From the NCBI GenBank assembly GCA_003024175.1, contig MDYQ01000186.1:1-55725 (forward strand): a DNA stretch of 55,725 nucleotides. Reading direction: 5' to 3'. A model generated the notes under the pieces. The model was not told the DNA's origin, ran no database searches, and saw only the letters and a list, made by a program, of their open reading frames with translations. Each line of letters opens with the position of its first letter. The stretch's first letter is position 1. Positions 1 through 53,300 of the stretch are shown here, one piece after another. Origin of the DNA: Planoprotostelium fungivorum (Eukaryota; Evosea; Variosea; Cavosteliida; Cavosteliaceae). A program made the position numbers and the translations under genes.

Positions 1-2109
1 GACATGCACACTCACCCTCTCCGCCATAGCTTTCAACTCTGGCAGCAGATACCGATCACCGATGATCATCGTCTCCACGGCAACTTCCGCATCGATGACT
101 ACATAGTCCGTGTACCTTCCTCCTTAGTCGACATTCACAAACGTCGACACCCACAGATACTCCATGACGATGAGAAAGACCTGATGATCAACGTCCGACA
201 TCTCTATGGTATCTTGATAGCTCTCCCTCATTCGATTTGATATGAGAGCGTTGAAGTGTTCGCTGCGTGTGGCCAATATGTTCTTGTGTGCGAATACCTT
301 ACGGCCTTCCACGAGAAAGACAATGTCGGAGAATTTCTCCGAATTGACTAATCTCCGAAGATCTCCCGCCAAACTTCGCGGAGGGGGGACCGCCGCCGTG
401 ACAGAAAATTCTGGGGAAAATCAGGGGGGGACGGGGGGGTAACACACCGAAATTGAACCGATGGAGGTCGTTCAGGTTGGTCTGACGCTTCGAATATCCG
501 CCGAATATGTACATGTTCTTGCAGTGAACGATGGCACAGTGGAAGTGTCTTGCTGAAGGGGTGCGAGCGTCAGATTCTGATATGGTCACCCATTTCTTGT
601 CCGTTCCATCTACAACAGTTCAATCGGATGAGACAATCTGGAAGGGGAGAATCTAGGGAGATTTCGGGTTACGTACCGAGTTCGAGGGTGCAGACGTCAC
701 CGTATTGTTCCTTGTTGAAACCACCGTGGACGTACAATCGATCGTTGTGGGCCACGGTCACGTGACCTCTACGCTTCTGGGGGAGGCTACTGATACGTAT
801 CCATACGTAAGTGTCCAGATTGAAACGAAAGCAGTCCCCTTGGTTGTCCGTGGCGGCTAAACCTATCTCTCCGTCAGATGAATTGTACACAGACTTTTCG
901 CTGCTGATTCGTTGGAGATCGATAATAATATAGATATGTGGATACCGTTGTAGATCGATAGTTTCATGTATATACAGTGTTGTAGATCGAACCGTACGTA
1001 TATACGATGGGCATGGTATAAGTGTATGATGTCTCTATCGATGCATCGACGATGTCATCGTGAATAGAGATGGATGATATTACAAATCGAATATGGATGG
1101 ATATAAATGGATTCACCTCCTACGATGTATAGATTGTGATTGAACAGAGCTGCTCCGTGAAATTGTCTCGCGGCAGGTGGTGTGCCGAAGGCGGGGAGAG
1201 ATCTCCATATACCAGATCCTACGGGCTTCAGTTTGAAATTTGAATCTCCCGCCGAAATCACCGATGTGGAATTCGTGTGCATCTCTCAGGAAGTGAGTAC
1301 CGTAACCACCGAAGACGACGATGGAGGCCTCCCCATTCTCTCTACAACGAGTCAATTTCATTTCCACCCTCTACTAGATGTATGTAGGGCGGCACGGTAA
1401 AGATCGTGAATTTTGCGGTAGTTAAGGTGTTCTCACTTGAGATGGAGGTTTGCAGTGTGACCCCAACGTGGTGTGGGTGGATTATCACTTCTTATCTCTC
1501 GCCAGGCTCCAGTGACTGTGCATCGGTAAGCATCATGTGAATTTAATGGACTCACTGATGTCAAAGTGATGTAAATCGTTTCGAACTTGACCGTTGGTGC
1601 CTTCATTCCATCAGATCCTGATGGTGACGCTCGAGATGAGATCACACCGATGCCACCGAAGACGTAAAGTCCATTGTTGTGACAGACCATTGTGTGGGAG
1701 TGACGAGCTGGTGGCCGATCCGCTTTGTTTCCTTGGTAGACAAAGTCCCATCTTCCTTCGTCTATAGAGATCAACAGGTTTTCGATTTTCAATAAACGTA
1801 TCACGTGGGTGGTTTGTCATTCAGAAATAGAATTGAAGAGAAGAAATGTCTCTCGCTCGTGCGAACATGGAAGATGTATACGATGATCACCTAGACTGTA
1901 TTTGTGAAGGTCATTCCGGTGAACTCCTCTTCGGTCGACGTCATCACTGACAGTGATTCTCAGAGGAAGGCGGCCAGCTATGAGGATTCGACTCACCTAT
2001 ATCCTCCAAAGACATAAATGTAATTGGCATGGACTGCCATCGCATGACAGTGCCTGGGAACAGGTACTGTACCTGTTGTGGCCAACACCTCCCATGAATT
2101 AGCATCCAT
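1..2109 (-). CDS. Kelch-repeat/BTB protein (LZTR1-like architecture), 3' end cut off
   Basis: Spliced minus-strand gene running off the left edge. The N-terminal part is a Kelch propeller with several repeats showing the GG plus HS/HT..Y/F-GG pattern, such as RHCHAMAVHANYIYVFGGY (about 2000-2070) and ARHSHTMVCHNNGLYVFGG (about 1670-1720). A BTB domain follows (about 120-372) with LVNSEKFSDIVFLVEGRKVF and HKNILATRSEHFNALI. A BTB/BACK-like exon, DRYLLPELKAMAE, lies near the edge. The start is the ATG at 2109 (MDANSWEV), the first in-frame ATG after a stop just upstream. Kelch first and BTB second is the order seen in LZTR1-type adaptors, which by family knowledge link substrates to cullin-3 ubiquitin ligases. 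That role is inferred. The intron at 380-450 contains long G runs on the plus strand. One intron acceptor (near 610) is the window's recurrent GTTGTAG|AT motif. Divergent neighbour: HAUS1, 184 bp away. Confidence 0.72.
380..440 (+). other. cluster of four G tracts (possible G-quadruplex) in an intron
   Basis: On the plus strand G runs of 6, 4, 7 and 7 bases occur at 383-388, 413-416, 424-430 and 433-439, inside an intron of the minus-strand Kelch/BTB gene. The transcript therefore carries C runs and the coding (non-template) strand is C-rich. Such spacing is compatible with a DNA G-quadruplex, but loops are long and nothing else supports a function. Confidence 0.4.
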
Positions 2110-2292
2110 CCCGATGTGAATCTCGATGGGTGTTTGTCCGTTTTGGAAGGTAACCGTGACACGAAGGATGGGTTAGATGCCCACAGATCGTCTTTAGAGG
2201 TCAGTGAATGCCTATATCGTGATTGCTGATGCCGATGTGAAATACAGAAATAACATCTTCCCGCCTTTTATTTATTCAACATCGGCCACAAC
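2110..2292. promoter_or_regulatory. divergent intergenic region, Kelch-BTB / HAUS1
   Basis: Only 183 bp separate the two start codons of these head-to-head genes, so both promoters must lie here or overlap 5' exons. An AT-rich stretch (tttatttattcaac) sits just before the HAUS1 start. No recognised binding motif was found. Confidence 0.45.
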
Positions 2293-3387
2293 ATGAACGA
2301 TCAGGTTTTAGAGGACAAGTATAAAGTCGTCCTAGGATGGCTCAAATACAAATACGGCAACGACATACCTCCATGGGAGGTCACCGCAGATAACATCCAG
2401 ATCATGTATGATCTGGCGACCCTAAATCAAATACGAACCGCACAAGTGCAAGCGAAGACACAATTCATGTTAGAGATCCTTCAGGAATACAAGGTGGAAA
2501 CCGATATGATGAGACAAACTATCGATCATTTGGGCGTCAAGAAGATGTTACCCTCCATCACCTCTTCAGATTCTTCCACATCATCTCTGCATCAAGTCGT
2601 CAGAAGTCTCACCGCCTCCGCCGTCGAGCTCGATCTCAAAGACACAGAGACAAGCAGGTGATGCACATCCAACGACACGTTTGTCACGGCCTTCTCATCT
2701 GATCCTCTCCAGTTTCTTCTTTGCCATCAATCGACTTCATTCCGATCAGAATGACCTCGTAGACAGACAGAGAAGTGTAGATCGATCCCATCGTGTCATG
2801 AAACAGAAGCTCTCTCAAGCTCAGACGGCTCTCAATAGTTTACAAAAGTGAGACGTTCTGAGTCATCCCAGTCATCTATATTGATCATCGCAGGATCTTG
2901 AAAGAGACGAAACTCAATGCGGAGAAGACGAGAGATCTGATGAAGAAACAAAAAGAAGAATCACCTTACTACGATCAGAAGCAGGCTGAATACACGGAAG
3001 AATTATCGGAGTTGCAAGAGAAGGTGATGATGTTTCACAAGTTCATCAGAATGAAAGGCACAATATATTGATATCGTACAGCTGACTGCCTCTGGCTTGA
3101 AGCGAGAGATCATGCATCCCGCTTTGGTCCAACTTCGGTCCGAGTTGGACGAAGTCCAACAAGAAGATTCCGAGATTCGGTCCAAGTTGGACGTCTACAA
3201 CGATCTACCTCCCGTGAGAACTTGTCATCGTCATCGGCATCTCATCACATGTGGAATGTCATTGCGACCAAAGGAGACTGATGGAGTGCAGGATGTTGCC
3301 TTGGCTGAGATCAAGATCACAGAGGCGAAGAGAAGGTACAACGAGATGGAAGACAAGTTGAGAACAGCCATCTCCGAGTTCATCTGA
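2293..3387 (+). CDS. HAUS1: HAUS augmin-like complex subunit 1
   Basis: Coiled-coil protein in about five exons (2293-2656, 2713-2847, 2894-3023, then 3084 onward), about 280 aa. The start ATG at 2293 opens with a block like HAUS1: VVLGWLKYKYGNDIPPWEV, then a region ending in AVELDLKDTETS. The C-terminus has the HAUS1-like pattern LRSELDEVQQED..SKLDVYNDLPP followed by LAEIKITEAKRRYNEMEDKL. By family knowledge HAUS1 belongs to the eight-subunit augmin complex, which recruits gamma-tubulin ring complex to existing microtubules and nucleates branches in the spindle. Lengths and both ends match the family. No defects were seen. The identification rests on remembered family patterns, so it is likely rather than proven. 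Confidence 0.75.
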
Positions 3388-3599
3388 AAGTCATGCGACC
3401 CGTTTGGATTCCTTGTACATAAAAAGACGTTCGGTTTTCGTCGGGGCAGTTTCAGAGTTGAAGGAAATGACAGATGCATATCAATGCTTATTTTCCCCCT
3501 TAAGTCAATACAATGATGCCACGATGAGTTCCTGCAACACTAGAAGTTCGTCGCTACCACACGCTAAATCGCCTCGGGAATAATCCTAGAAGGACACAA

Positions 3600-4851: not shown

Positions 4852-4985
4852 AATAAAACACGAACCATCTTGTCATGACAACCGACCAAAGTCCCGAAAA
4901 GGGAAAAATAATTCGTTTGGGATTTATGAGATATACAACCAGCCGATTCCAATCGAGAAAGGACCCCGGATCTCAGATCATCATC

Positions 4986-8223: not shown

Positions 8224-8371
8224 GCTGAGAGAATATCTATCGTGTGTGTTGCTGTCAGTGTCAGCCGCTGGAAGGCGAGATCTGCAACCAAACTGCGAAA
8301 TAAACGTGAAATTTCATGCTTTGTAACAAAATTCGGAGATTGAACACGCAAGTTGGCCCCGAGGGGGTTGA

Positions 8372-12600: not shown

Positions 12601-15420
12601 ATCGTTGTAGATCGATGGTCTCACCAGAGGGAATCGAACTTTGGTTTCGATCAGTTTCTGGAAGAAAGGCGCGTCATCTAAAAATGCCTTTCGTCTGAGA
12701 AATGCTATCGTCCTCTCATCTTTCATCTGATGGAAATGTTAGCTGGATGATCATCATCGATCACACGATCGAGTTTCGCATCATCACCTGGTTTTGCTCG
12801 GGCCACCTCCGACTCAACAGACGCAAGAACGACCACTGCTCGTTGGTGACTGCACAACTGAGTGCAGATCTTCCTTGATGAATCGCGTCCATCTTGACAT
12901 TCATGTGAGTGACTAAAAAATCTGCCGGCCAATATAAGCCATTCATGGCTAGAAATTGTAGGATGGTAGGCGTCGATCTATATGTTTTCAGAATAATGTT
13001 CGTCGATGATCGTGATGGTGATCGTGATGATGATCGTGATGATGATCTCACCTGTTGATGACTTGATGATGTTCCATCATCCACTTACTACTGTAACAAC
13101 CGAAAGACCACGCAGGAAGCCCGCGAAATCTCAAAGGAAAATTTCTTATCGTCTTGTGTGAACTGGAGACTAAACCGTGATCGAAAGTCATTCCACAGTG
13201 GATGAATGCCTTGTCCATGGTCCACACTCTCAGAAGCTGAGCGGAGGCTGATTGTAGATCCCACACTTCGAGGCTGTTGTTGTTCTCGCTGGGTAGATAG
13301 AGAAGGTCACCTAATGAAGAAGGACGAGCCGTTCCAGGAACGGTACTCAGCATGTACAAGAGCTCAAGGTTCTTTGTGATATATCAGTAGAATTTTCGTG
13401 GAGTCTTCTCACCTTCGCATTGTAGACGGTGGCGGATCTGTGCTGCACTATGACCAATTTATCCGTCACTTGTAACATGTGCTTGACTTTTCCTTCGTTT
13501 GGCAGGTTGTAGATCTTCATTTCTCTCCCATCTTTCATGCGACAAGCTTGAATTGTGTGCTGTGTGCAAGTGTAGATCTTGTCCCCATATGTGGTCACGT
13601 GATCAATTCCCATGGAGACGACATTTTCTGCACTCCATCTCACGCTCCAATCCTTAGTGACGATCGTCAGCTTTCATCTCATCTACAACACTCACAAATA
13701 CATTCCAGACATAGATGGACCCTCTCACGCTCGCCGTGATCAGAGATGCTCCTTCTTCTTCTGTCTGAGATATAGACATGCTGGTGATCGGTTCCTTGTG
13801 TTCCAATCGTCTGACCGGTTTACCATCCAAGGCCCTCCAAACATCTACTCTTCCCTCGTTATCGTTCGTCACGATGACGTCAGCGACAAACAGGGCACAG
13901 TGAATCGGGCCCCAATGTCCATCCAGGGTGCAGCGGATGCGTATACCACTATCCTGTCTCTCCGTCAGATGATGGAGATGTCATTCACTCACCTTGACGC
14001 CCACGATGTACGCCTTCTTCTTGGTAGGTACGAGGGCCATGTCATCGCACGAGTTGATATAACATCCCGAATTTCCAGGAAATTTCTCAGCTTTGGTTAC
14101 CCGAATGGGCTGCAGCGACCACACTTTGATGTCATCGTTGGTTAAACTCCAGAGTGAAGAGTGGCCCAGGTGACTGATAGATGCGCACAGATGGTGAGTG
14201 CCTCGACCCTCCAATGTCTGGAGGTAAGACATCGTATCGATGCGTACGACGTCCACTCCTTCCATGATGAGGATTGTAGATGAATGTGATCGATTTTCAC
14301 CTTGCGTGTGGGAGAGGAAGATGAAACCGTTGAATACAGTGAGAGTATTGTAGAATAAGTCTGCTCGGTCGTAATTCTCCCAGTCTACAGCGATGGGAGC
14401 TCTTGTGACCATGGAGAGGACGTGAAATTGACCTTCTATATCGATGCAAAATATGTATTTTTCGTCAGCAGCAACGACCTGATCTCCTTTAATCTTTCCT
14501 CGAACATAGATAGTAGATCACATAAAATTGTGATCATACGATGATGTGACATTTTGAACGATAAGATGAAAAAGTCTCACCAGTGGATCAGCCATCAAAT
14601 GTAATTTCGATAGAGTGAGGTTGTCTGTCCCTATACTGCAATCTTTGATGCTCCAAACGTGAAAGTTGGCTTCCTTCTCTGTTTCACCTCCGTGGTATCT
14701 CGACCACCCAACGATCAGCAGAGACTCGGTCATGGACAGCCTGGGGATGCGGTGAAATGGGTCGAGTATTCTTCCCATGACTTCTCCAGTCTCGATGGAG
14801 AAGACGTGGATGTCTGTAGTTTCTCCACGACGGCAGAACAATTGAGAGGAGGTTGCTTCAAATTGGGTTACGGGTCCTCCAACTTCGATGCGTTTTACGA
14901 CGCGAGCAGCGTTGTCTTTCCACACCTGCAGATGATTACCATGAGATCGAATGGGGATGATTCAATCACTGACCGGTGCCCACAGACAGACCCAATCATC
15001 TCCTCCTGCACTCCATAGAGTTGTGGGTGATTTCGAATATAAGAGAGTGACAGGCTGCCGATGTCCTCTCATCCAATGTTCTTGCTTTGTATCCCACTCG
15101 GTCAAACCGTAGACTTCTACGACAGAATTATTCTTCCGACAAAGATAGACGTGATGTGGGAGGACAATGCAACATGCGATATCCCTCTCTGCGATGGTCT
15201 GCCTCGGCTTGGTTTCTACGATCTGGTAGATTCAGATGGTGACCCTTGCCTCTATCATCTGCTGTCTCACCGGGAAGCCAACATCGGTGCCGTGTACGAT
15301 GGCAGCTCTGTGTCTTATTTGCCTATCGCCTCCATCATCATTCCACGGCGAACTCTCTTCTGTGTCGTCTATCCCTTCTGAATGGACAACACCGAGTGGT
15401 ATCTCTTCAGGTGAGCTCAT
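9612..15420 (-). CDS. WD40-type propeller + ankyrin + polycystin (TRPP) channel + coiled coil
   Basis: One long spliced minus-strand gene. The N-terminal half (15420 to about 13050) is a beta-propeller: GHRQPVTLLYSKSPTTLWS then GGDDWVCLWAP (about 15030), EANFHVWSIKD (about 14660), RGSIYVWNVF (about 13700), NNSLEVWDLQSASAQLL (about 13280). Ankyrin-like sequence follows (12990-12000): INAQDDSGNTPLHYAF, RNRNLLHHAVLSSNIQAIRLL. A first membrane span (HHLLWILAIIIG, about 11850) precedes the extracellular polycystin domain (11800-11060, with RAIVVSLSLWNVNINSVVAIDLGVEF split by residues), then S2-S4 (about 11000-10600). The pore region at 10300-10510 reads FGTSVFSLRSLGQTILSLTRAVIGD and FFGPLFFLLFASFQCIILFNM in pieces. 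A coiled-coil cytosolic tail ends at 9612. The propeller joins the ankyrin part through an in-frame intron (INR, 13047/12993), which supports a single gene. Family knowledge: polycystin-2-type channels conduct cations at cilia, ER or contractile vacuoles. The start ATG at 15420 is likely, not certain. Confidence 0.72.
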
Positions 15421-17362: not shown

Positions 17363-19206
17363 ATGAGTTTCGCTTCGATATGGAATCATCAGACACAATC
17401 AAAAGAGCCTATCGTCTTCCACTGCATCTTCTTACATCCAACGACACAACTCTTGACTCATTGGCCTTCAACGGCTATAGACCCCCAACGCCTGAAGAAA
17501 ATCTATCGTGATGCGAGTGACACCATCACCCTCGATCGGAAAGACATCATACTCCATCCCGATACACCGATCGATTTGAAGAAAGATGAAATTTATACCA
17601 TCGTTCCTATGAAGGTCAGTTCTATACGATATTCCGTTCATAATGACATATCCAGGGTGAAATCACGCCTAGCAGACCAATGCCCACACCTGTTCTCACG
17701 TCAGAGGTGAAGATGATCCAGCTGGATTGAACGTCCCCTGATGTGACATTCAGATGCAAGAGTCATCTCTCGAAGAGTTCGAGGAGTCCCTGAGAAAGAA
17801 CGTAGAAGACGCTTCAGAAGATGAGCTACTGCAGAAGGAAGTCAATTACATGGGCAATTTCGACGAGATCACGGACCAAGTGAGTGGAGGCGAGAGAGCT
17901 CATCTACAACGTTGTAGATTGTCGATGGTCTGTGGCTCGGAGATTGTTATTCCATGGAATGTCACAAGCAGATGCACATCAAAGGTGAGACGATGATGAT
18001 AATCACGATGATCGATCGGCAATCATCAATGTGTATGAACTTCGATCAGGTATAACCCACGTCATCTCCGTGGCCAACGGTCTCAAACCCATCACGAACG
18101 ATGTGAGTCGTCGACACACCACAGTCGACATTCATTCGTCCACCCCCTCGTACAATCCGATCCGTTCTGACTCGTTGTAGAATCTCACTCAACACATCTA
18201 TTCTCTACCTGATGTTCCTTCCTCGAATCTTCTCGAGATTTTCGACGAAACTTCCAACATCATAGACTCTGCGCGGGAGAAGGGTGCTGTTCTCGTCCAC
18301 TGGTGAGTTTTATCGAAATGAAATTTCGCTGACATCTCAGTATGGCCGGGGTGTCTCGCAGTGCATCTGTCGTGGTAGCTTACATCATGAAGACATTCAG
18401 AATCAGTAGAGATGAAGCCATCCAACTCGTTCGCGCCAGGAGGAATCAGATCTATCCCAATCAGTGAGTTTTCCGCGGAATTTCGGCTCGTGTACGTACG
18501 TTACGCTCCTTACCGAGATTTCGCAGGGGTTTCATGAATCAATTGAAAGAGTACGAGACGATGGGGTGTGAATTGAGAGAAGACAGACACATTCGAAGCT
18601 TACAAGACACGATAGAGAGGATGAAAAACTTGGCCTTCTTGATGGAATGTGAGCCATCGTACGATGTGAAATTTCGAGAAGTCGTGTACATTGTCGACGT
18701 CGACATGTGTGGGTGAACAGAAGGCTGACGGGGTCACAGCGGAGGGGAGGGTGAGGCTGGAGTGGCTGAAGAGGGATCCGAACAACAGTCTATTGAAAGA
18801 GACTGAGAAGAAGAGATTGTTCGTCTGTGCTTCTTGTCAGAGACCTCTCTTTCTCGTGGAGAGTCTCTTGCATCCGACAGAGGTGATCATCGTGACCATC
18901 GTCTCATGCATCGCGCCAACACATCTCGTCATCTCATCGACACCCTCATCACCGCATCATCGTGATGACATGGAACAGGGGCTGTGCAATAATCTGTTCT
19001 TAGAGCCGATGCAATGGATGCACGATCAGATCAGCGGCTTCTCTGGCCAACTCCAGTGTCCGCAGTGCAGGAAGCGATTGGGGAGCTACAGTTGGACATC
19101 ATCGATGGAGAAGACGATCGAGTGCTCATGCCATCACATCACGGTCCCCGCCTTCAACGTGTGGACATCGAGAGTACTGCCCGCCGGAAGGAAGAGTTGG
19201 ACATAA
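17363..19206 (+). CDS. DUSP12: dual-specificity phosphatase DUSP12/Yvh1 with N-terminal extension
   Basis: Multi-exon gene. The N-terminal 85 residues (MSFASIWNHQTQ to DEIYTIVPMK) are an unrecognised domain, joined in frame through GEITPSRPMP to an acidic linker. The phosphatase domain follows: ITDQIVDGLWLGDCYSM, GITHVISVANGLKP, YSLPDVPSSNLLE (candidate general-acid Asp), then the P-loop VHCMAGVSRSASVVVAYIM (about 18295-18390; Cys nucleophile and Arg present). The C-terminal zinc module has CASCQRPLF, NLFLEPMQWMHDQI, GQLQCPQCRKRLGSYSW and CSC...VPAFNVWTSRV, closely patterned on DUSP12/Yvh1. Family knowledge: Yvh1 releases Mrt4 from pre-60S ribosomes, and the zinc domain is the essential part. 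One intron (17881-17917) ends inside a perfect 18-bp palindrome. The stop TAA is at 19204. Confidence 0.8.
17902..17919. repeat. perfect 18-bp palindrome ATCTACAACGTTGTAGAT at an intron 3' end
   Basis: The palindrome spans the 3' splice site of a DUSP12 intron; splicing after TGTAG gives the in-frame junction DQ|IVDGLWLG. Another perfect copy lies at 27545-27562. Confidence 0.85.
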
Positions 19207-26038: not shown

Positions 26039-29000
26039 TTATTCGTTTCTCCTCGACACAGTCCATGCAGTCAACACATCATTACTGGCGACAGATCCTT
26101 TCCATACGTTGGAGACGCTCAATAAGGTAGATACGAGAGCTCCTCTCGTCTGCAACATCTTGCCATTCGAAATGAGACATGACATCCTCTGTATGACTCT
26201 GTCCATGTAGGGAGCCCAGTTGGGGTCTTCTCGTTGGAGGTATCTGTTGTTCGTGTCAATCTATGATGAGATGGAAGAGAAGCCGATTACCTCTGACAGA
26301 TGCGAGAGAAATCGCAGGACATCAAGAGATTGGGATGAGAGGGACTCCATCTCGGATTATTGTGTCTAAAGAGGACGCTCGAATCGGATGCCAACCATTG
26401 GGTAGATAGACCTTTTCATCTTTCAGAATGGGTGTCGATGTGAAGATGGAAATGATCTCACAGGAGAGGATGGAAAGACCCATCAGAGGATTTGGACTGA
26501 GAGAGAGGGCGTCTAACGTATCCAACAACCATCTCTGTCGGTCTTCCGCAGATCGAACGATGGGCTCAATCACGATGGGAATGAGAGGACATAACATCTC
26601 CGCTTGACCTGCAATCTCCATCAGATCTCATCTGATGGATGCTTCTTCTCACCCAAATGGGTGATGGACAACAGCCACGTCCTGCATGAACTCAAGATGG
26701 AAGATGGAAGGACCTTTCCATCGACCAGTTTAGACAACACGTAACACATCTTGACGTTCTGTTGAAATGCCTCTTCGTCCTGCTCGCGAGTCAACATCTC
26801 ATCTTCTTAGACATCACATCATGACCTTGTCTCCCATCTGCAGAGAAAATCTAGACTGCAACAAGTCTTGAGGGATAGAAGAGAGACACTTAACGTAAGC
26901 GTCTAAGACGTGGACCGCTGCATCATCGAGTCCTCTCTGATGATGGACGATGTTGGGTGTCGATGAGATGAACTGGTTTACGGATGAGACAATGTGTGGA
27001 CGATGCAATGAGATTACATGATGTAACAGGATGGAATGCAATTCGGACAGAACAGGTTGTGGAAGGGTCTCTGCATTAGACAATGTCTTAGCGATGACAT
27101 CCAACACCTGCAACATGCTGAGTCACACGGCCAAAATTTTCTCCTCGTATTATTTTCTTTCAGACTTTGAAGAATAATTCTCGAAAATTTTCATTTTTTC
27201 ACAATTTGGAAATTAAATTTCATTCTCACCTTGATTTGAGAAGAAAGATCTCCTTCAAATGAATCGAAGGCAAAAGTGAACAATTCTCCGGCCATTTTCT
27301 TCGCCTTACCCGAAGGCAGAGCCGTCAACAACGTCGGCATGCATCCGATCATCTACAACGAGTCACTCGGACCTCTCCCAGCCTCAACCCCCCACCTCCA
27401 TTTTCACGGAATTTTCAAAGCCAGTGAACCTCTCCATTTCAGTCCATTCACTCACCAGAGCACCCAGGCTCGGCTCGGTCACGTGACTGCAGGCGAATTT
27501 TACGCTCTGAGCTCTTACCTACGTGGGGTCACGTGACTCGATCGATCTACAACGTTGTAGATGCTCACATTTGGTCCCAGGGTAGAGCGGAAGGAAGAGA
27601 GTATGAGGCTCTCCCAATTTGTAGACGGAAGGCGAGAGAGTGTCGACAGTGTCGACAACGAGGCCGCCACTTGCTCGCTCGATGTGGAGCTAAATATAGA
27701 TCGGCACGTTGTAGATGGAGAAAAGTCGTGGAAAACTCACACATCTTGAGACTGTACGGACTGTTGGATGAGGGTAAAGAGGGTACGAACCAAGCTGGTG
27801 GGAGGCATGTAGCTGAGGTCGGAGGGTACACCTACAATTCCGTGAATTTTCGTGAAAATTTGGAGGAACTTTCACCCTTGGAGGCGGCTGCCAGGGGTAG
27901 AGGCCTTCCCAGTAAACCCAGAGTCCAACCCGCCACTCTGAAATCTCGATGAGATTCGCCTCGACGATCTACAACGATGTAGAACACGATCGTCACGATG
28001 GTATGAAATAAGAATAAAATAGAACAAATGTGGTGCGTCATGATGATCACCTGGACACTTTGGCATCACCATCATCATCCAAACACTTGTTCATGCGCTG
28101 AACGGCCCGACTCACGGCGGGATAATTCTTACTCTCCTTCATCACGGTGGGTGAGAGCGTACAGTACGCATCAATGAATGTCGACGTCGACAGACGAGGT
28201 GAGGGTGTGACTGAGAAATTTCCGAGAACGTTCCCTAAGGCAATAACTCCGGCCATTCTAGCGTTCGTGTCTTCTTCGTTGTCATCGATCATTCTGATGA
28301 TTTTCGCTACGAGCCCATCTACAACGCCTCCGGTCACGTGACCTGTACACGTCATCAATGGAAGGGAAATTTCACGGAAATATACCTTCGGTGGTGAGGG
28401 TGTGACGGAGAGATGAGAAAGAGATGAGAATGGCGGGAAATTCTTGTGAAGAAGGTGGTGTACGGTCCATCAGCTCTTCTACCCTCTGCAGCAGCTGCGT
28501 ACAGTACTCGTTGTCGACAATGTCGACAGAGTAACAGCGGGAGGTGAGGGAGGGTAACGCGTAGAGGGCACCTTCGATGAGACCTCCCTGAGATTTCGTG
28601 TAAATTTGAGTGAAATTTCGATGAAAGTTGCACCTCGCGGTGGTGGGAGGGAGAAGAGAGGAGGGAAGTGGCGCGGTCCAATAGGTGTTTCAATTTTTTG
28701 TGCCCGTTCGCAGATTTGAGGGCAGAGGATGCGAATGCGATACCGACGAAGGCACCGTAGGCTGAGATGATGTCATGAAAGATCGTCGAGATATCGTACC
28801 TGATAGGGGATCTTTCGTCTCATTCAATTGTGCCTCCAGGGTCTCCACCATATCGTTCAAGAGGGTAGAAGTCTCCCCCCTGTCGCTCGTGTCTCCTCTT
28901 CCCATGGCAGCCGCCAATAGACCTGAAATAAACGTCATCGAATATCATTTTGTTATATTTTATTCTTCGATACAACTATAAATCGAATTTATTTTGTTTT

Positions 29001-32000: not shown

Positions 32001-33568
32001 AACCTTCGAAAATAATTCCAAGAGGGTCACTTGCTCCTGCTGAGAGCCACCTGTGACGTTTGAGTTCGAGAAGAAATTTCAGTGAAATTTACCCATCAAG
32101 AGGTAAGAGAGGACCGTGATCACGTGACTATCTTCAGTGAAGAACGAGAAACGTTCGATGAATTTTCCGAGAAGATTCAGAGGAAGATTCAGAGATTTTT
32201 GCGTGGACCTCAGGTTACACAGAATGGATAGGATGGCCTGCGATCGTTCAGTGAATGGACGATCCAGCAGACGAACCTCTAAGAGTTGAAAAGCCAGTTG
32301 TCTGTCTCCGCTGGCCTCGTTCTTGTCATCTACAACGATGTTTTCTATCAGATTCTCCAGGGCAGAAAATACGAATAATTTCGAGGCATTATCAACAACG
32401 GATTGAAACGGCTGGTTTCGTCAGTATGACATCCCTCGTGATATCTCTTTGAGTTGTAGATGGATGATCTCACTAATAACTCGATCAAGTTGGAGAAGAT
32501 GTAATGGCGGAGTTGGGAGGTGGATGCATCGGCGCTTTTTCCGATTTGGATCAATCTACAATGCAATTGATTCACGGCGAGTGCCCAGTCTTCACTGTGA
32601 ACTGAATTTCGTTAAACCTTAAAAGATGACAGTCGATGGACGATGATGATCGGTGATCGATCGTGAAAAGTGATCATCTCGAGCGATCGGGTGATGTGAT
32701 CACGTGGATCAGTCGATGATGATCGATGATCGGATGTCTAATCACCCTCGCAGAAAGTAGAAGTCACGAACGGCCAGACCATTCGGATGAAAGACTCTCC
32801 ACAGTCACCTCTCTTCGCCTTTGATAACTGACCCAACGTATGGGTGACCTAACCGTACATTCATATCGAGAAAATTTGAAAGAATATCATTAGACAATAG
32901 AAAGAATTTTTAATAGGTGAAAGAGAGAAATTGAAAGAAGGTTTTTCCTTCAAAGAAGTTTGAATTGAAGGAAAAGAAAAGATCTTTCAGAGAAGAAAAG
33001 AAAAACATTGAAAAAATGAAATAGAATCATGAAAGAGAAGAGATGCACACCTGCCACAAGAGATCCTGTCTCGTATCCAAACGACTGCGAAGGGCAGTTC
33101 GAAGAGGGTGATGAGTCCACGAGTATGTGATCTGATTGAAAATGAGGTGAGATGCATACCCCTCGAAATCGAAAGAAATCACCTTGGACGTCTGAGAGAG
33201 ATGTAACATGAGATCGATCAGGCTCTTTACGGCCGAGGAGGTGCATGGACCTTCTGGAGTGGATACGAAAGCGTTCAGCATGTCGGATTGAACTCTCTTC
33301 TCGTCTTGTTTGTCTTTACGAACAAGTTCGACCATCTGATTTCAATCAAAAATGGATGGATCAATCTTCTCACCGTGTTCCATGCCGATTCACATAGGAC
33401 GATGTTCGTGTTCGTCAGATTACTGATGAGAACATTGTATAGAGGTGTCGAAGATACAGGGGGAGACGTACGGAGGAGTAGGCTCTCCAATTTCTTCGCG
33501 GCTTCACGTTGTGATCCCACCTGTCCTGAGGAGAATTTAGACTCTAATTGGGATACATCGTCGTTCAT
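26039..33568 (-). CDS. FOCAD: focadhesin/RST1-like HEAT-repeat protein (DUF3730 family)
   Basis: Very long minus-strand gene with many introns, ATG 33568 (MNDDVSQLESKFSSGQVGS) to TAA 26039. The N-terminus resembles focadhesin openings. The body is helical HEAT/ARM-like repeats. Family-like blocks include RPGIAGAMLIAYRPP (about 29790), EWAKYGAAIGLGILTHN (about 29150), ARMAGVIALGNVLG (about 28230) and GVPSDLSYMPPTSL (about 27800). The last exon gives NWAPYMDRVIQRM and LVSTLLSVSNVWKG. By family knowledge FOCAD and plant RST1 bind and stabilise the Ski complex with the cytoplasmic exosome. Identification is by remembered sequence pattern, so moderate. Several introns end in CGTTGTAG|AT on the coding strand (plus coordinates 27351, 27967, 28317, 32328). 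One intron (30660-30850) is a TGATG microsatellite. Confidence 0.65.
27545..27562. repeat. perfect 18-bp palindrome ATCTACAACGTTGTAGAT
   Basis: Lies in a probable intron of the focadhesin-like gene, followed by repeated CACGTGAC words (27480-27536). Same sequence as the palindrome at 17902-17919. Confidence 0.85.
30662..30846. repeat. TGATG / GATCATGTGATGATG microsatellite
   Basis: About 185 bp of imperfect TGATG and TGATGTGATGATCATG units lie within an intron of the focadhesin-like gene. On the minus strand this gives an artificial His/Ile/Thr/Ser frame that should not be annotated as protein. Confidence 0.85.
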
Positions 33569-35666: not shown

Positions 35667-35690
35667 AACTTCTTTTTGATACATTTCATT

Positions 35691-37941: not shown

Positions 37942-37986
37942 AGCTGTCCACTGAGAACATCAGCTGACTACCACTGAGTGACTCAC

Positions 37987-39964: not shown

Positions 39965-41813
39965 TTAGAAGGTCTCCATGCCCACGGCCTCCAGTTTCTT
40001 TCTCATGTCTTCGTATCTCTTCTCGAGAGAGGCCACGTTCTTCTGTATCGTCTCCATGTTACCTCTAAAGTTTTCGTCCAACTGAGAATCCCATCAGCAT
40101 CACCATCATCTCCCGTTCGACATCATCGATGGACACTGTTGAAAAACTTCTCATCATCACCTTGTTGGACAGTTCGTTATTGTACTTGACCAAATTCTTG
40201 ATTTCCTCTTGCTGGGCCTCGATCTGGCTGACAGAGCCCACAAAGGACACGGACTGCTCGTGAAGGGCCTTTAGACTCTGCAGCCTCTGCACGATAGAAG
40301 GTAGCTGCTGAGAGAAGGTATCCCACTTCTTCGTCAGATCGAACAGCTCGTTGATCTACAACGCTCAGTTTTAATTTCTTTCTCTTCTCTTTTCTCACCT
40401 TTTGTTCGTGGATGGCTGGAGCCACGTTTGAATACGATTTCCTCTTGTCTAATATGCTCTCCATCTCTTGTGTGACGGGTTTGAGAGATTTTGTCAAGTT
40501 TTCGAGACTCTCAGGGGTGGATAAGACAGTGAGCCTCTCTTTCATCTGCTGGACGACATCCAAAATGGGTTGATTCATTGCGCTCTGTTAATCGATCAAC
40601 TCAAAGAAACGAATAAAACATGTAGGTAAAACAATAAAATACGCTTCACATCGACGTACGACGGAAATGGTTGACAATGTTTAAAATGGAATAAAACATG
40701 AGATGATTCTCACCGATCGAGCACCTAACAGCTTCTCCAAATCAGATATCCTCTTCTCTAAATCAGCAACCTTTGAAATCTCTTTCGCCTTGTTGTGCTG
40801 CGGTGTGCAGTACAATTCGTACGTCAACCCAGAAGCCTGACCACTCTGCTCCTAAATTTCGTCGACAACTGGACTCGATACAAATAGAAGGTCGACGTTC
40901 TCACCTGCACCGGCTTGGCATCTGAAGTGTTGATGTTCGTCACGACAGACGACAGTTGTTGGATGAGCTTCTCGCTCATGGCATTTTGGAGTGTCTCGCT
41001 CTGTCTCGCGTCATTCTTCGCGTCAATGATGCGAGCGGCTTGATCGTCCTGCGAGGGTGAGAAATGGTTGATGCGAGGGGAGGAGAAGGATGGGAGGGTT
41101 GGCGGATTCTTTCGCACCTTCAATAAGCCGGCGAGCTGTTGTTGGAGTAACTTGATCTCTGTGGAGAGAGCACTGCTACCCTTTGAGGCCTTCTCTTCAC
41201 CGCCTTCCTTCTGAACGTCCAATCAGCATGGAACAAGTGGAAATGTGATCTTCATGATTGGTCCTCACAGCTTTTCGATTGTTGATCTCCTCGACAAAAG
41301 AGGTGATTTCATATTGGAGACGATTAAATTTTTGCAATGGCGTCTCGTTCCTCTCTATGCTTCCGACCTCATATTCGTCTCTTCCCTTCTCTTCTCTCTG
41401 GCGGTTTCTGCGGACTGTGACCAGGCTCTCGCTGTAGTCTGTTTCGAACGCTGAGGATGCATTTGAATAGAGACGACATCATTACCTTGGCGGGACGTGT
41501 CGAATGTCTTCGAGGAGAATTTACCTGCAGCTTCTGATAGAGCTACTCTGTCACCATCGATGTTCTCCTTCAGATGTTCGGGTACCTGAGAGGATATGTG
41601 AGATGAAAATGTTTACATGCATACCTGATTAGACTGGTCGTTAGAATAGTTAATATCAGGGACATCGGGTGTCTCAAAGACATCAGGACCACTTCGATCC
41701 TAAATGAGAGTCAAGGAAGACGAGATTTACGAATCGCGAGCTCAATGTAGAAAGGATACGATGTTCAACAATCTTCCTCCGCCTCGCGGTGTTGGTGGTG
41801 GTGCATCCTCCAT
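39965..41813 (-). CDS. DCTN2: dynactin subunit 2 (dynamitin, p50)
   Basis: Many-exon minus-strand gene. The first exon MEDAPPPTPRGGGRLLNI joins in frame to DRSGPDVFETPDVPDINY, the typical dynamitin N-terminal VFETPD element. Coiled coils follow: LQKFNRLQYEITSFVEEIN, TEIKLLQQQLAGLLKV, SGLTYELYCTPQ, VADLEKRISDLEKLLG and MNQPILDVVQQMKERLTVL. The C-terminus resembles the family: LPSIVQRLQSLKALHEQSVS, then NVASLEKRYEDMRKKLEAVG, TAA at 39965. Dynamitin forms the shoulder of dynactin and links p150Glued to the Arp1 filament, so the gene product supports dynein cargo transport. The intron acceptor at 40354-40363 (minus) is CGTTGTAG|AT. Confidence 0.8.
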
Positions 41814-45505: not shown

Positions 45506-45984
45506 ATTTCGAGCTGTATGAGATGGGGTATTTACTCGATCTCTGTCGTCGCGAATGAATCAAATCGTGATGACATGACGGCTTTGAGACAAGTTTTACC
45601 TTCTATTTCTTTGTCACTGTTTATTTGGTCGTTCGATGTTGGATTCTCCTTCAATCGCTCGTCCTTTGAAAGATAGATGTTCGAAAGCGTCATTGTCACC
45701 CTCATCATGCCACAAAACTTCTTGGAAGAGTAGATTGAATGAATTGCGTGTAAAAGGATGTCAATTTTCGAAAATATCAGACAAGAGACATCGGGACTTT
45801 TTGCCCGAGCCGACAGGGAACAGCCGCAAGGCCAAGATCGTCTTCAAGATGCGAGCTCTTGGATCAGGATAAGCACGCGGAATCAACAGAGCACTCGAGC
45901 AATCTAATTGTAGATTGTACTAATTTGTGACGAAATAAAAACGAAACGAAACGAAAGACAAGAGACATCGGACCGGCCGGGCCA
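45506..45984. other. intergenic region with an unassigned 78-codon frame
   Basis: 479 bp. A plus-strand frame at 45636-45872 (basic, with SRLNELRVKGCQFSKISDKR) has no recognised family. AATAAAAACG at about 45941 suits a poly(A) signal for the upstream gene. The promoter of the first EGF gene must lie here. Confidence 0.35.
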
Positions 45985-48900
45985 ATGCGAAGGTCTCACC
46001 CCGTCTTAGAGTTCTGCCTCTTCCTCTTCTCCATCTCATCCTATTCTAATGCCCAGACTGACCTCTGCAACTGTGGTTCACTTCGACTCCTCACATCAGT
46101 CAGTCTCACAGGGCCCACCATCGATGTGTCTGTCGTATCACCCGACTACACGGAAACCGCAGTAGGTCCTCACTTGACCATCACGACCTCCACAAAGACC
46201 GAGAGTCTCCGATGCACGACGGTTGAATGCACGAATGTAGAAAAGAGCGAATGGCCGACATTTCCAAGTGATCAGCTCTTCACTGCGGTACCATATGTGG
46301 ATCTGAGGACAAAACCTGACGCTTGGATAGTCGACAGGGTCACTTTCACGGGTCTCACTGTAAGCTGTGATGACTCGATATTTGGTTGATTTTCATCTCA
46401 GTGTGCAGAAGGACAGCTCCACATCGATGCTCAAGTCTTCGAGCATCAGGATCACTTCTCAATGGAAAGCGGTCTCTGCCTAGGTTGGAATCTTTACAAT
46501 CTCACCGTATTCAAACGGAACCAATATGGATACTATCCTATTGCCCTCTATAATCAAGGTGAGGTCATCACCCAACCATTTTCATCATTTCGATCACACA
46601 TCAATGATCTGTGTCAGGTGGAAATCTGGCCCTCGTCGATATCGCATATGATGGAGGATGGATATCAACAATCCCATCGTGAGTGCACCGCATCATCACG
46701 AGATCTCATCCACCATCAGACCACCACCACAATACAAAGGTGTGACACCCATACGAGGCGTGAGTTTAGGAGATGGTGAGTCATCATCTCGATCGCAGCT
46801 GATGATCTCAGACATCTTCTTCATCTTTCTCTCACAAGGATCGGATATGTATTCTGTTCACTGTCCCGGACAAACAGTCACACCGTGCGTGACGAATCAT
46901 TTTATTTCATTTTATTCTCTCCTCTTACCTCTCATCAGAAGCTGCAAGGTCAACCACATCAAGAAGGCAGATTCGTGGATGAATGGTCGACTGTTCACTG
47001 AGTCTCCTCTGTCTGTGGCCGTCTACAACGGTACACCCATCATCACGGTGTCTGTGCGGACGAAAGGTCTGGAGACCATCAGGTGATCATCGCATCGACA
47101 TCACTCCATGGCGATCATCGGACGGGATGATGATGAGAATCTGAAACACATCAGGTGTCTCGATGCCAAATGTACGACCACGAAGCAGTTACCGGTGAAA
47201 TATGAAATGCTACGCACGGTCTACTGAACGAATTTGGCAGGTTGTAGAAGAAAGACTTATCTACGGTGGATTTGTCACCGTCGATCCATCACATCGTATT
47301 GTCTTCACTTCCTTGCTGTCTAACGGAAGGTGAGACGTCACAAGACAGCTGAGCTGACGCTGATGACGTCGAGCAGCATCATGAAGAGGACATGTGATGA
47401 CAATGAATGTTCGACTTATCAGACGAAAACAGTGGGAAAAGTAGATAGTAGTATGAACCCGAGGATCAGAGATGCTTCCACGGAAACTCAGTTTTCCATC
47501 ATCGCTTTCACCGAGACGATGTATTCGAAAAAAACGTACATCTACAACGAATGCAACAGTAATCTGATGAATATCGCTCCTGCACAAAGTGAGATGAACC
47601 GTCATCATCATCATCATCATCGATCACCTCCCATCACGTCGCTTCCACTCTAAAACATCCTTGAGAACTCAATGGATCACGCGTTTCATCACGACCTGAT
47701 ATCGTACAGTCGACGCTCACACCAGACAAGAGGTCATTCTATTAGGCAACGGTTTCTGCACTTCTCGCGCTTACAAGTGTACGACATGTGAGCTCTTTCT
47801 TCTACAACTCTCGTCTCACTCTCGGCAGCTGATGGACTCTTTTCATCCATCGCCAAAGTCAACAGTGAAGAAGATATGAGTTGTACTCTGCCCAACACAA
47901 TGGTCGATGGCATCTATGACATCACGGTCAACGATGTATCAGTGAGTGGAGAGGAGAGAGAGAAGGTAGTGACGATGGACAGGGAAGTGTGAAGCTGATG
48001 GTGGGAGACTGTGGTTGTGGAGTGTATGGAACGTGTAATCCTGAAAGAGTTCGATGCGATTGCAGAGATGGATATTCTGGGGAAAAATGTGACGTACCTC
48101 CGACGACATCTACAACGAGCACGACGTCGAGCACATCATCTACAACGAGTACGACGTCGAGCACATCATCTACAACGAGCACGACGTCGAGCATGTCATC
48201 TACAACGAGCAAAATAACGAGCACGACGTCGAGCACGTCATCTACAACGAGCACTATATCCACGAGCGTTGCGACTACAACGAGCCAGAGTACGGATATT
48301 TCGTCGGAATCTATGAGAACATCTACTACGACCTCGGAGACCACTACATCATCATCTACAACGGGTCAGTCCTCCACTTCAATGGAGTTTACCACGTCCT
48401 CGTCTACAACGAGCCAAGATGGATTCATCACCGGCTCTCAGAATGGTACCACTGCAACTTCATCAACAACTGAATATGATATCATTACGAGTTTCAACGA
48501 CACTTCCACTTCTGGTCTCTTGGATGATTCAGGTGCATTCCACTCACACTGACATCGAAGCAATCACGTGACTGACAGCAATATACAGAATGGAAAGACA
48601 AGAGAGTCAAGGCATCCATCGTCATCGGTCTCTATGTGCTCTTTCTTGCAGTTGTCACAGCTTTCTTCTACTTTCGCAACATCTCATATGTCAGGTGAGA
48701 TGCAGACAGAGAGGCTGACGCTGTTAAACCTGAAGAACATACTGACAGTGGTCAATCTTCCCATCGAGTTCTTGCAGCTGTCGTTCTTTGGTCTGGCACT
48801 GCGAGAGGGGTGAGAGAAGAAGAAAGTGAGAATGGCAAAGTGACCGTTGTAGATGGACTAGAAATTTCCGCTCAGCAGTTTCACCCACCACCCTCGATTT

Positions 48901-50208
48901 CGTGAGTACAATCTGTATTTCATTCGATACATATCTCTATGGAATTATATCCATACGGTGACTCACGTGAATTATCAGTTCCACAGCGAAGAATTAGTCA
49001 TGGTGGAGTTCTTCGTTGTGTTCGCTTGTACCTTATCGTGGAGTCTGTTGGTATTACCCGTCATGTTTATGTATAAAGGGAGACCATTGATGGTTACGCT
49101 GCTGGAGATTCCTGCCATCAAGTGAGTGATGACGAGGAGGATGATCATCTCGATGATGATGATGATGATGACGCTGGATAGATCACTGTTCTCTCTGGGT
49201 GTGTTGTTGATCATACCATTCGGGACATTCCTAGTGTTACCTAGCATTCGAATGCTGCTGAGAATGTCAGAGTGTAAACACGTACCGGTGAGATTTCTAC
49301 GATTTCTCGCATATAACTGTCTTCTTGTACACATCATAGATGATGTGATACATAGAACGATAGAGTGATGAGAAGCAGGATGAAGTTGGACTGTATGTGA
49401 GAGGTACGACGATGGAATGCTGGACACAAGATCAGATCGTGCTGTGTGTGATGGGACTGATAGGGCTGGGCATCTACTTTCCGCTTGCAGTGTACATACT
49501 GCCAAAGATACAGACGTCAGATGGGACGGCAGAGATACTTCGTAACACGAGGTGATTGTGGATACTCGTGATCTCATGATGATCATCAACCATGATCATC
49601 TCGATCATGACCAAGATCATCATCTCGATCACGATGGTGCTCAGCATCACAACATCGATGACGGAAGACTGATCCGTAACAGGTTTCTGTTCATTCAAAA
49701 GATGCTTTACGTCTCTATCGTCGTCATTCAGGTTAGTGTCCATCCATCCTTCCACTCACTTCATGCAGGTACTCTGCTCAGAAGAGCTGTACAACATCAT
49801 CTGTGCCATCGTCGTCTCTCTGCTCCTCTTTCTCGTCAGCTTTGACGGCTCTTGCAACGTCAGATGGATCAATCGGACACAGACAGTGATGTACATCGCA
49901 GCCTTCTGGACCGCGTGCATGTCACTGTGGGCACAAGTGCGAAACAAGGACGACAGGTGATGATTCTGAAGAGGGGACGAGCCAACAAGACTGATGATGA
50001 TGTCAGTCTTCCACCTCCACTGATGGCCCTCTTTGCGGGCTATCTGCTCATCCTTCTGCTCTTCGTTCTGTCTTGGATACCACAGATTTCTTCTTTCCAC
50101 AGACGTCAACAGACAGATCTGCTGAGCGCGCTGATAGGGGGGATGGACGATGAGAAGAGACCACTGATGACTGATTCCTCCTCTGAGATCGATCTGATGG
50201 GGGAATGA
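45985..50208 (+). CDS. EGF-domain multi-pass membrane protein, tandem copy 1
   Basis: Start ATG 45985 with signal peptide (MRRSHPVLEFCLFLFSISSY, then SNAQ). A large extracellular region begins TDLCNCGSLRLL, followed by a beta-rich part, then one EGF-like module: GDCGCGVYGTCNPERVRCDC and RDGYSGEKCDVPP (47999-48100). A Ser/Thr stalk of tandem repeats follows, then EWKDKRVKASIVIGLYVLFL. The C-terminal half has about eight membrane spans: VVNLPIEFLQLSFFGLAL, MVEFFVVFACTLSWSLLVLP, LGVLLIIPFGTFLVLPSI, QIVLCVMGLIGLGIYFPLAV, YNIICAIVVSLLLFLVSF, MYIAAFWTACMSLWAQV and FAGYLLILLLFVLSW. It ends at SSSEIDLMGE. Family not recognised with confidence; the layout recalls amoeba surface receptors and fungal TRP-like membrane domains. 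The intron after NISYV is only 19 nt here (48695-48713), which may impair splicing. Confidence 0.65.
48109..48263 (+). repeat. 30-bp coding minisatellite for the Ser/Thr stalk
   Basis: About five units of tctacaacgagcacgacg plus tcgagcacatca encode S-T-T-S-T-T-S-S-T-S. Each unit contains the ATCTACAACGAG word that is also the window's dispersed intron motif. Confidence 0.85.
48510..48862 (+). repeat. near-identical block shared with 52728-53118
   Basis: This block of copy 1 (end of stalk exon, intron, membrane exon, following exons) is almost base-identical to copy 2, introns included, apart from a 43-bp indel flanked by ACAGAGAGGC. Further near-identical blocks are 49365-49556 with 53625-53816, and 49680-49960 with 53925-54210. 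Confidence 0.85.
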
Positions 50209-50315
50209 CGTCGGGGCTGATGTGAAAAGAGAGAAAAATACAATTTTGAGGCGTTTTATTCGTAGTTCTCGCTGGGTTGCGAATTTGCATCAGTGTCATC
50301 GGATTGGACCATCAG

Positions 50316-53300
50316 ATGCACCAATGGTGGACCTCGATGTGGATCTATGTCTTCTTTTTCCTCTTTCCTCTCTCAAACGGTCAGACTGATCTCTGCCACT
50401 GCGGGACACTACGACATATCGCATCGACTGACTTCTCTGATCCCATCATCGATCTATCAGTCATCTCTCCCGCAGCCGATTTCACAGGATTTGGTGCACA
50501 ACCTCAAATCACCATCACATCTGCAACTAAGATGTCAAGTTTCCGATGTCAATCGTCAGAATGCACACAAGTAGACAAGAAGGAGTGGACATCACAGAGC
50601 GGTGCATATGTCGCTGGAGTCCCCTACATTGATCCTGTCTTTGGCGTAGACACGTGGTTCGTTGAGAGACAAGACCAAGGAAATTCCATGGTAAGATTAG
50701 ACGAAACGACATCAGTTGATCGTTTCAAAGTGCGAAGGAAGACTTTACATGGGAACTACTTCTCAAAACTACGGAGGGACCAATGGTTTCTGTGTGGGTT
50801 CGACCCTCTACAACATCACCTCTTTCGATCGGAATGGCATCCTTCCCATCGCCCTCTACGATGATGGAAGTGAGTCCCACCTAACTCACACCTCACACCT
50901 GCACTATTTCCCTCCTTCTCTACATCGTTGATACCTCACAGGTTATCTGACTCTTTATGATACCATGGATGGATCGAATCTAGAGTTACCGTTCTCCACG
51001 TGGGTCGCACATCATGCGGAAAGATCTGATCTGCCGCCAGATCATCATCACAATATAAACGGAAGATACCCATACGAGGTAGAACCCTGGGCATAGGTGA
51101 GCGTTCTTCTCGTCCTGAATTAAAACCGAGATCACGTCAGGGTTGTTCTTCATCATGCTCTTAGAAGGCAAGGAATTCTATTACATCTATTGTGCAGATA
51201 CAGATCATCTGTCGTCTAAGTGAGTCGTTCATTCTGTTTCATCTACTTTTCCACTCTCATCCTCATGTTGACCTCTGTGGCAGATGCTCTACGTTTTCAC
51301 TCAATGTCAATACAGAATGGTGGAACGATGCCTCGTCGCTATCTGAATCTCCTCTGTCGGTGGCTACTTATGGATCGTATCCCATCATCACAGTTGCCGT
51401 CGTGTCAAAGGGTCTAGAGACGATCAGGTGATGACATCATGATGGAAACGATGATGGTCATCGAACATGATCACCATGATGATCGTGCGATGACAATGGA
51501 GATGTTATGTTCTGATGACGCACCAGGTGTCTCGATTCATCTTGCCGCTCGATAAAATATCTACCGGTGACCATGCCCTTATACTCACCATCACTGAATC
51601 CAATCTGGCAGGTTGTAGATGAGCCCAGTCTTCACAGTGGACATATGACAATCCACTCGTACGGTCTCGATGATTACCCAGGTCGTATCCTGTACACCTA
51701 TCTTCTACAGAATGGAAGGTAAGACGTCTTAATTTGATATCGCGACGTCATGACGAGGTGCAGTATCGTGAGGAGGACTTGTCATGACGAGAGCTGTTCC
51801 ATTTTTGGGACGAAAATTCTCGGAACGATCGGCCCGGTACAGACTGCGAGACTGAGAGACTCCTCCACCAGCCTCCAAGTGTCCTTCATCGCTCTCACTG
51901 AAAGTGAAAACAAGCAGGACGTGTTCATCTACAACGATTGCGAAAATCGATTGCTGAACGTCACTCCCTCTCACGGTGAGTCGTTTCAGAATAAAAATAA
52001 ATTCGATGTGTTAGAATGGATTCGATCAACTGTTGAGAGATGATTTCATCTGATGACGTGCAGTGTCTGCACACAATTCTACAAGGTTGATTCTATATGG
52101 TCGACGTTTCTGCACTTCTCGCGCTTACAAGTGTACGACATGTGAGCTCTTTTCTCTACAACTCTCGTCTCACTCTCGGCAGCTGATGGACTCTTTTCAT
52201 CTCCTGCTACAGCCGAAAGTGGAGAGCAGATGAGTTGTACTCTGCCCAATACAATGACCGATGGCATCTATGACATCACGGTCAACGATGTATCAGTGGG
52301 TGGAAAGGAGAGAGAGAAGGTAGTGACGATGGACAGGGAAGTGTGAAGCTGATGGTGGGAGATTGTGGTTGTGGCCCACACGGAACGTGTGATTATGCAG
52401 AGGGAGAGTGTGACTGCCAGGATGGATATTATGGAGGGAAATGCGAGATACCTCCATTCCCTATATCTACAACGACCACGACCACAAGCTCGAAGACTAC
52501 GATCAGTCAAATTCCGAGCACTTCGACGAGTCAACCAGAGACGAAGTCCTCTTCTACAACGAGCCAACCAGAGACAAATTTTTCTTCTACAACGAGCCAA
52601 TCGATCACTTCGTCTACAACGAGATATTCACTCACTTCCACTGCCAATACAACTGGTACGTATGTACCTATGACGTCATCACACGCCACCACTACGAGTC
52701 TAAACACCACCTCTACCTCTACTTCCGCTCTCTTGGATGATTCAGGTGCATTCCACTCACACTGACATCGAAGCGATCACGTGACTGACAGCAATATACA
52801 GAATGGAAAGACAAGAGAGTCAAGGCATCCATCGTCATCGGTCTCTATGTGCTCTTTCTTGCAGTTGTCACAGCTTTCTTCTACTTTCGCAACATCTCAT
52901 ATGTCAGGTGAGATGCAGACAGAGAGGCGAGTGAGTGATGGTCGACAGGCTGGCTTATCGAACAGAGAGGCTGACGCTGTTAAACCTGAAGAACATACTG
53001 ACAGTGGTCAATCTTCCCATCGAGTTCTTGCAGCTGTCGTTCTTTGGTCTGGCACTGCGAGAGGGGTGAGAGAAGAAGAAAGTGAGAATGGCAAAGTGAC
53101 CGTTGTAGATGGACGAGAATTTTTCGAAGGGTAGCCTCACCTACCACCCTCGATTTTGTAAGTATCTATCTTCATTCGTTTTCACTCGCCTTATCCCAAA
53201 TGGGGTTCACCGATCATCACAGAATTTCAGTCACTTACATGAGACGTCAGTTGTTCAGTGGAGAGTTAGTCATGGTGGAGTTCTTCATCGTGTTCGCTTG

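Follow-up and report, generated by a model that had tools for sequence, protein, structure and literature searches.

Short introns are not an obvious place for a long fixed word, and a stretch of Planoprotostelium fungivorum DNA (contig MDYQ01000186.1, positions 1 to 55,725; 55,725 nucleotides, here called the window) raises the question of what such a word is doing there. The window carries many copies of a dispersed 10-mer, CGTTGTAGAT/ATCTACAACG, which an initial annotation had read as an extended 3' splice site, and for which it had suggested the footprint of an introner-like mobile element or a motif bound by protein or RNA. In the reading to which we give about even chances, a putative DNA-binding protein recognizes the word as a strict site on double-stranded DNA, and the site is maintained within transcribed genes.

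The window contains 28 copies of the 10-mer against 0.07 expected from dinucleotide shuffles, and the whole genome (36.86 Mb) contains 7,984 (3,973 and 4,011 on the two strands), against 62 (27 and 35) for the reversed word as a control. The dispersed word and its excess, as first described, are therefore both confirmed. By excess score it ranks first among the 10-mers of the window and of contig C1, positions 100-200 kb. In C20:1-50 kb there are 11 copies against 0.09 expected, and telomere-like, GA-rich and overlapping words outrank it there; this sampled contig end (C20:1-50000) holds telomere-like CCCTAAA/TTTAGGG repeats. The spread along contig C1 looks uneven, with at least 6 copies among the matches listed in positions 1-100000 and 43 in 100001-200000. 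Full-text literature searches with three letter strings of the word returned no title on protist introns among the matches listed, and a search on an intronic motif in two orientations returned nothing relevant by title.

The position of copies relative to genes was assessed with a home-made gene finder. Its coding and donor models are self-trained, and its acceptor model is limited to four positions around the AG and is blind to the word. The gene models rest on sequence alone. The blind labels cover 305.7 kb in four stretches: a first sample of 205.7 kb, and C142:100-200 kb as a second sample outside the training set. In the first sample 744 introns were predicted, with a length mode near 40 nt. 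Their average profile shows the donor G/GTGAG (a slash outside brackets marks a splice junction), an enrichment of A some 10-11 nt before the acceptor, and a CAG acceptor; beyond this CAG-like end, no base of ordinary acceptors is strongly fixed. The average of all predicted acceptors has no clear polypyrimidine tract, so the lack of a tract that had been noted for introns of the word is not special to them. A second version of the finder, with a hand-set branch-point term, gave 867 introns from the same 205.7 kb and was used, for the first sample, in the counts on gene spread, pairing, wobble variants, synonymous shuffles and TGNC[T/G] flanks and, beside the blind version, in the coding call at 32328. 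The term is absent from the acceptor 7-mer ranks, the count of copies called as acceptors, the intron calls in the window, the density classes, the masked comparison of introns, and the strand-symmetry and strictness counts. The finder merges or splits some genes. Where checked, the models are good: a predicted protein of 1,468 residues aligns to human Aquarius (AQR; 5mqf chain U, 1,394 bits) without gaps at motif-acceptor junctions 9 and 15 (the third motif junction, 23, lies beyond the alignment shown), and also at the Walker A intron, which holds a reverse copy of the word.

Across the 305.7 kb, the 116 copies of the 10-mer are distributed as 63 in introns of up to 60 nt (2.25 per kb), 9 in introns of 61-100 nt (0.49 per kb), 12 in longer introns (0.29 per kb), 31 in exons (0.175 per kb) and 1 between genes (0.024 per kb). 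About 9% of the short introns carry it (59/628); counted per intron the contrast is smaller, since 8/235 introns of 61-100 nt and 12/229 longer ones also do, and these two classes may include some false introns. Between genes the rate is lower than in long introns (P = 0.0018). With the 9-mer this gap is smaller, with 5 of 168 copies between genes, against 19 in long introns (P = 0.0035). Within introns the word is found over the 5' splice site, just past it, mid-intron or at the 3' end; no first-intron bias was seen by eye in the intron numbers, and no fixed spacing or orientation between neighbouring sites is evident. Exons hold an excess as well, with 22 copies of ATCTACAACG against 4.8 in a synonymous-codon shuffle (maximum 9) and 9 of CGTTGTAGAT against 0.08 (maximum 1), the latter all in one frame, Val-Val-Asp. 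Introns that the finder missed may account for some of the exonic calls, and a single Ser/Thr-rich repeat, which the finder placed in a different frame, holds several of the window copies. The spread of the 9-mer over genes is uneven (164 copies over 108 predicted genes, chi-square 198 with 107 degrees of freedom; 66 genes have none). One home-made gene model, g14 (C1:138808-147874), has 13 copies of the 9-mer; its product we take, by eye, to be telomerase reverse transcriptase-like, with other genes merged on. Motif-rich predicted proteins are mixed by eye, with no theme of gene function; Aquarius is the one name tested, and the others are presumably telomerase-like, kinase-like and so forth, by impression.

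Inside the predicted introns of the four stretches the word is strict and occurs in both orientations. There are 84 exact copies (56 forward, 28 reverse) against 0.16 expected, 19 one-step variants at core positions 2-9 (12 forward, 7 reverse) against 4.3 expected, and 42 variants at the outer positions 1 and 10 against 0.7 expected. We estimate that a word decaying neutrally at a steady pace would show roughly 0.8 one-step core variants for each exact copy; the excess observed is about 0.2. Genome-wide, the 24 nt that follow GTGAG contain the reverse word 954 times and the forward word 1,200 times, a forward count that takes in some acceptors; the reversed patterns give 1 and 3. In introns of up to 100 nt, CTACAACG occurs 36 times and CGTTGTAG 30 times, whereas the U-rich word ATTTTATT (19 against 2) and the branch-point extension TGACTCGT (14 against 1) are one-sided; near-symmetry between strands is thus a property of the core and does not extend to the splicing part. 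A core that is strict and the same in both orientations, with variants few but above chance, is what would be expected of a double-stranded DNA site. Asymmetric spacers within the palindromes are consistent with this, since they occur in either direction (TCGT 5, ACGA 3; CCGT 2, ACGG 2). The likeness of the flanks in both transcription directions was not used as evidence, since a palindromic site is counted in each direction. Introns of up to 100 nt hold a large excess of other palindromic 8-mers as well, namely GAAATTTC (27 against 1.4 expected), TGACGTCA (24 against 2.7) and TCACGTGA (17 against 4.5), and TGACGTCA has the same intron-over-intergenic pattern as the 10-mer.

Some of the copies end introns. 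With the word-blind finder, GTTGTAG ranks first among acceptor 7-mers in both samples (24/744 introns in the first, 12/348 in C142:100-200 kb). The finder called 29/116 10-mers as acceptors (19/82 in the first sample, 10/34 in C142), and about 3% of introns (36/1,092) have such a fixed 3' end. By gene models and homology, acceptor use of the word is real, yet a minority case. Intron 3' ends in the 305.7 kb sampled are enriched for the word, as the check proposed in the initial annotation would require, and its picture of the word as an acceptor applies to this minority, most copies lying elsewhere. Nor is the word confined to acceptors in the sense orientation, as an extended spliceosomal 3' consensus would be; reverse copies are frequent. 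Of the 9-mer copies in genes, 41 have a palindromic flank on the left and were left out of the count; among the remainder, the left flank TGNC[T/G] occurs at 19/31 acceptor copies, 9/48 exonic copies and 9/44 internal intronic copies, against a background of 0.9%. Because it is above background also at exonic and internal intronic copies, this flank seems to be part of the motif. The N is A (TGAC) in 19/19 of the flanked acceptor copies; acceptors seem to select the A version, able to serve as a branch point. Genome-wide, TGACNCGTTGTAGAT has 811 copies and the reversed pattern none. TGAC[T/G]CGTTGTAG/AT brings its own branch point and AG acceptor and, by gene models and homology, is used as a ready-made intron 3' end.

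Conservation could be followed in one gene family, three tandem paralogs on contig C2 that are 82-88% identical. The acceptor copy TTGACGCGTTGTAG/AT is kept in 3/3, in one paralog in an intron the interior of which differs in length and sequence. One reverse intronic copy is kept in 3/3 (once with a changed outer base), as is an exonic forward core. The window has a tandem gene pair of its own (45900-49600 and 50200-53900) with tracts of complete identity, one of which ends just past the motif; these tracts look like gene conversion, and since the tract around the motif is identical, the pair is uninformative on motif conservation.

If a protein does read the word, its half-site would be CGTTGTAGAT, which can be written (C)GTTGTAGA(T) and is sometimes extended as TG[G/A]C[T/G]CGTTGTAGATGG; in some sites the half-site would be doubled into the palindrome (A)TCTACAACGTTGTAGA(T). 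With densely packed genes and a typical intron length of about 40 nt, short introns would be the main room for the word, and it would therefore occur there in many registers and both orientations. A forward word at an intron end would offer its TAG as acceptor and its TGAC flank as branch point, so that binding site and intron 3' end would be one, and binding might slow or mark the polymerase for co-transcriptional splicing. A tentative extension, which we consider possible but doubtful, is that the protein marks gene bodies: it would read a strict 10-18 bp site, present in short introns of many genes across the genome and excluded from intergenic DNA, the marking would be coupled to splicing, the site would have evolved into a branch point and acceptor, and the palindromes GAAATTTC, TGACGTCA and TCACGTGA would be sister marks.

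The same data could be read at the level of RNA, with CGUUGUAG/AU as a fused branch point and acceptor that either the spliceosome or some RNA-binding protein recognizes, and with the reverse word as a second splicing element near 5' splice sites; one-strand RNA recognition would act on CGUUGUAGAU. Such a splicing element would account for the rank of GTTGTAG among acceptor 7-mers in both samples, for TGAC[T/G] directly upstream in 19 of the 31 non-palindromic acceptor copies, for the near-confinement of the word to gene bodies with the highest density in short introns, and for the frequent position of the reverse word directly after GTGAGT (GTGAGTNNATCTACAACG, 131 copies and none of the reversed pattern). 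We nevertheless regard it as rather unlikely: both orientations are about equally common and equally strict inside introns, two unrelated RNA signals would need to be exact reverse complements, and exonic copies are in excess too. RNA-RNA pairing, between forward and reverse copies in different introns of one transcript or between the word and a small nuclear RNA, could also steer splicing; the two words are exact complements, and several genes carry both orientations. However, the two orientations do not co-occur within genes above chance (73 against 86 expected), wobble variants are not notably kept, some genes hold a single intronic copy, and non-palindromic motif introns fold no better than 150 sampled others (palindromic ones do fold better than other introns). 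One locus was read out of 15 U2 matches and one out of 3 U6 matches, and neither showed such a stretch inside the RNA. Pairing seems to us very improbable. Of the U2-like matches 14 lie above the cut-off, and the U6 matches include two tandem U6-like genes (C74:56400-56602); matches also lie on C27, C123, C387 and other contigs.

An introner, or another small mobile element with its own acceptor, would explain why the palindromic form (CTACANNNNTGTAG, 2,042 copies against 169 for the reversed pattern) resembles joined terminal inverted repeats and why sites are unevenly spread over genes. Its footprint should extend beyond the word, but when 60 of the 72 short motif introns were compared all-against-all with the word masked, the mean longest shared word was 5.0, against 5.7 in non-motif introns, and no similarity over most of the intron was found, in this comparison or by eye. 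Terminal inverted repeats at both intron ends were not seen either; by eye, each listed short intron has one copy or a compact palindrome. One-step variants are fewer than steady decay leaves, though a very recent burst would also give few; only a single 10-mer lies between genes, and one paralogous intron keeps the word while its interior diverges. We think this origin improbable. Among the origins first suggested, the protein-bound motif would be the best supported, along with a word that carries its own branch point and acceptor; the introner footprint is not supported. Chance, or an ordinary acceptor consensus with coding bias, has the least to offer and is scarcely credible: codons for Ile-Tyr-Asn and Ser-Thr-Thr account for some exonic copies (4.8 of 22 in the shuffle), but ordinary acceptors have no strongly fixed base beyond their CAG, and the genome-wide excess over the reversed word refutes it as a full explanation. 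Taken together, strictness, strand symmetry and persistence in paralogs are hard to reconcile with a plain splice consensus, with pairing between RNAs or with mobile elements in decay.

Several observations nonetheless weigh against a DNA site. The protein that would read the word is hypothetical. Only one of the 116 10-mers lies in the 40.9 kb of intergenic DNA, as an RNA element would behave; for a DNA site such near-absence between genes is odd. The invariable A of the flanked acceptor copies indicates that copies at intron 3' ends are shaped by splicing. Nor is the core wholly fixed: its variants exceed chance in introns and, in the whole C142 stretch with exons included, number 18 against 34 exact copies. 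In the C2 paralogs a third intronic copy is lost in 1/3 and an exonic reverse core is changed in 1/3. The intergenic class depends on a home-made, sequence-only finder, and the branch-point term may favour TGAC-bearing acceptors in the results from that version.

Little besides splice signals is usually expected in introns of about 40 nt. If a DNA site is the right reading, such tiny introns would be landing sites for a sequence-reading factor, sometimes shared with a splice site, and one could test directly why a genome this compact retains so many introns.

Other systems share parts of this picture. The uptake signal sequences of Haemophilus and Neisseria are strict 9-12-mers in many copies, on both strands and in inverted pairs, and resemble the word in these respects; unlike them, it is nearly confined to eukaryotic gene bodies, mostly introns, and shared with splice signals. 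Intragenic zinc-finger sites (CTCF) and plant intron-mediated-enhancement motifs are likewise DNA-level motifs in introns, whereas here the factor is putative, first introns are not preferred by eye and intergenic copies are nearly absent. Giardia and Trichomonas have fused branch point-acceptor motifs, which are alike in their extended fixed sequence from branch point to AG; in contrast, such an end is found here in about 3% of introns of an intron-rich genome, and the word occurs in both orientations and away from acceptors. The same likeness and differences apply to the strict 3' intron structures that occur in intron-poor eukaryotes, as outlined in an excerpt of Irimia and Roy (2008; PMC2483917). 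Introners, as described in an excerpt of Gozashti et al. (2022; PMC9860276), are similar in that many introns share sequence, with an own acceptor in one orientation here and a palindrome that recalls terminal inverted repeats. They differ in that the shared part here is about 8-18 bp, with no whole-element similarity, few one-step variants and nearly no intergenic copies.

Table 1. Copies of the word and introns that contain or end in it, in the window (finder, the word-blind gene finder; gene names as given in the initial annotation).
Feature	Position	Strand	Remarks
Kelch-gene intron ending TGTTGTAG/AT	610..700	-	Blind finder; first base T, so inexact 10-mer
10-mer antisense to gene, inside predicted 254-nt intron 863-1116	946..955	+	
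10-mer antisense to gene, inside 41-nt intron 12584-12624	12603..12612	+	
38-nt intron of gene called DUSP12	17880..17917	+	Finder; 3' end is palindrome ATCTACAACGTTGTAG/AT at 17902-17919
Intron ending TGACTCGTTGTAG/AA	18103..18180	+	Finder
Intron ending TGACTCGTTGTAG/AT, gene called focadhesin	27353..27455	-	Finder
Perfect 18-bp palindrome ATCTACAACGTTGTAGAT near 5' splice site of 62-nt intron	27545..27562	.	
10-mer inside intron	27967..27976	-	Acceptor called elsewhere
10-mer inside intron	28317..28326	-	Acceptor called elsewhere
10-mer read as coding Val-Val-Asp (IENIVVDDKNE)	32328..32337	-	Uncalled as acceptor
43-nt intron of dynamitin-like gene ending CTGAGCGTTGTAG/AT	40356..40398	-	Finder
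Six 10-mers antisense to Ser/Thr-rich stretch	48108..48363	-	Mostly tandem repeat (TCT ACA ACG = STT)
43-nt intron ending TGACCGTTGTAG/AT, first of two copies called EGF	48810..48852	+	Frame and copy likeness; finder chose another intron
43-nt intron ending TGACCGTTGTAG/AT, second copy called EGF	53066..53108	+	Frame and copy likeness; finder chose another acceptor

Seven of the ten junctions at which the initial annotation had placed acceptors in the window are supported (Table 1). Five were called by the blind finder (610, 17917, 18180, 27353 and 40356), and two are supported by frame (48852 and 53108), both reading through as LREGWTRxFRxxxSPTTLDF. The other three are not supported: 27967 and 28317 lie inside introns with predicted acceptors further on, and 32328 is read as coding. 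The copies that had been noted in opposite orientation inside introns (946 and 12603) are indeed antisense within predicted introns, and reverse copies are about as common as forward ones inside introns. The gene names fared unevenly: the one focadhesin exon checked against Pfam matched nothing, the dynamitin-like stretch matches Pfam Dynamitin at E 0.00012 and 22 bits, under the curated cut-off of 31.8, and the Kelch repeats, in an exon upstream of the 610..700 intron, do match Pfam.

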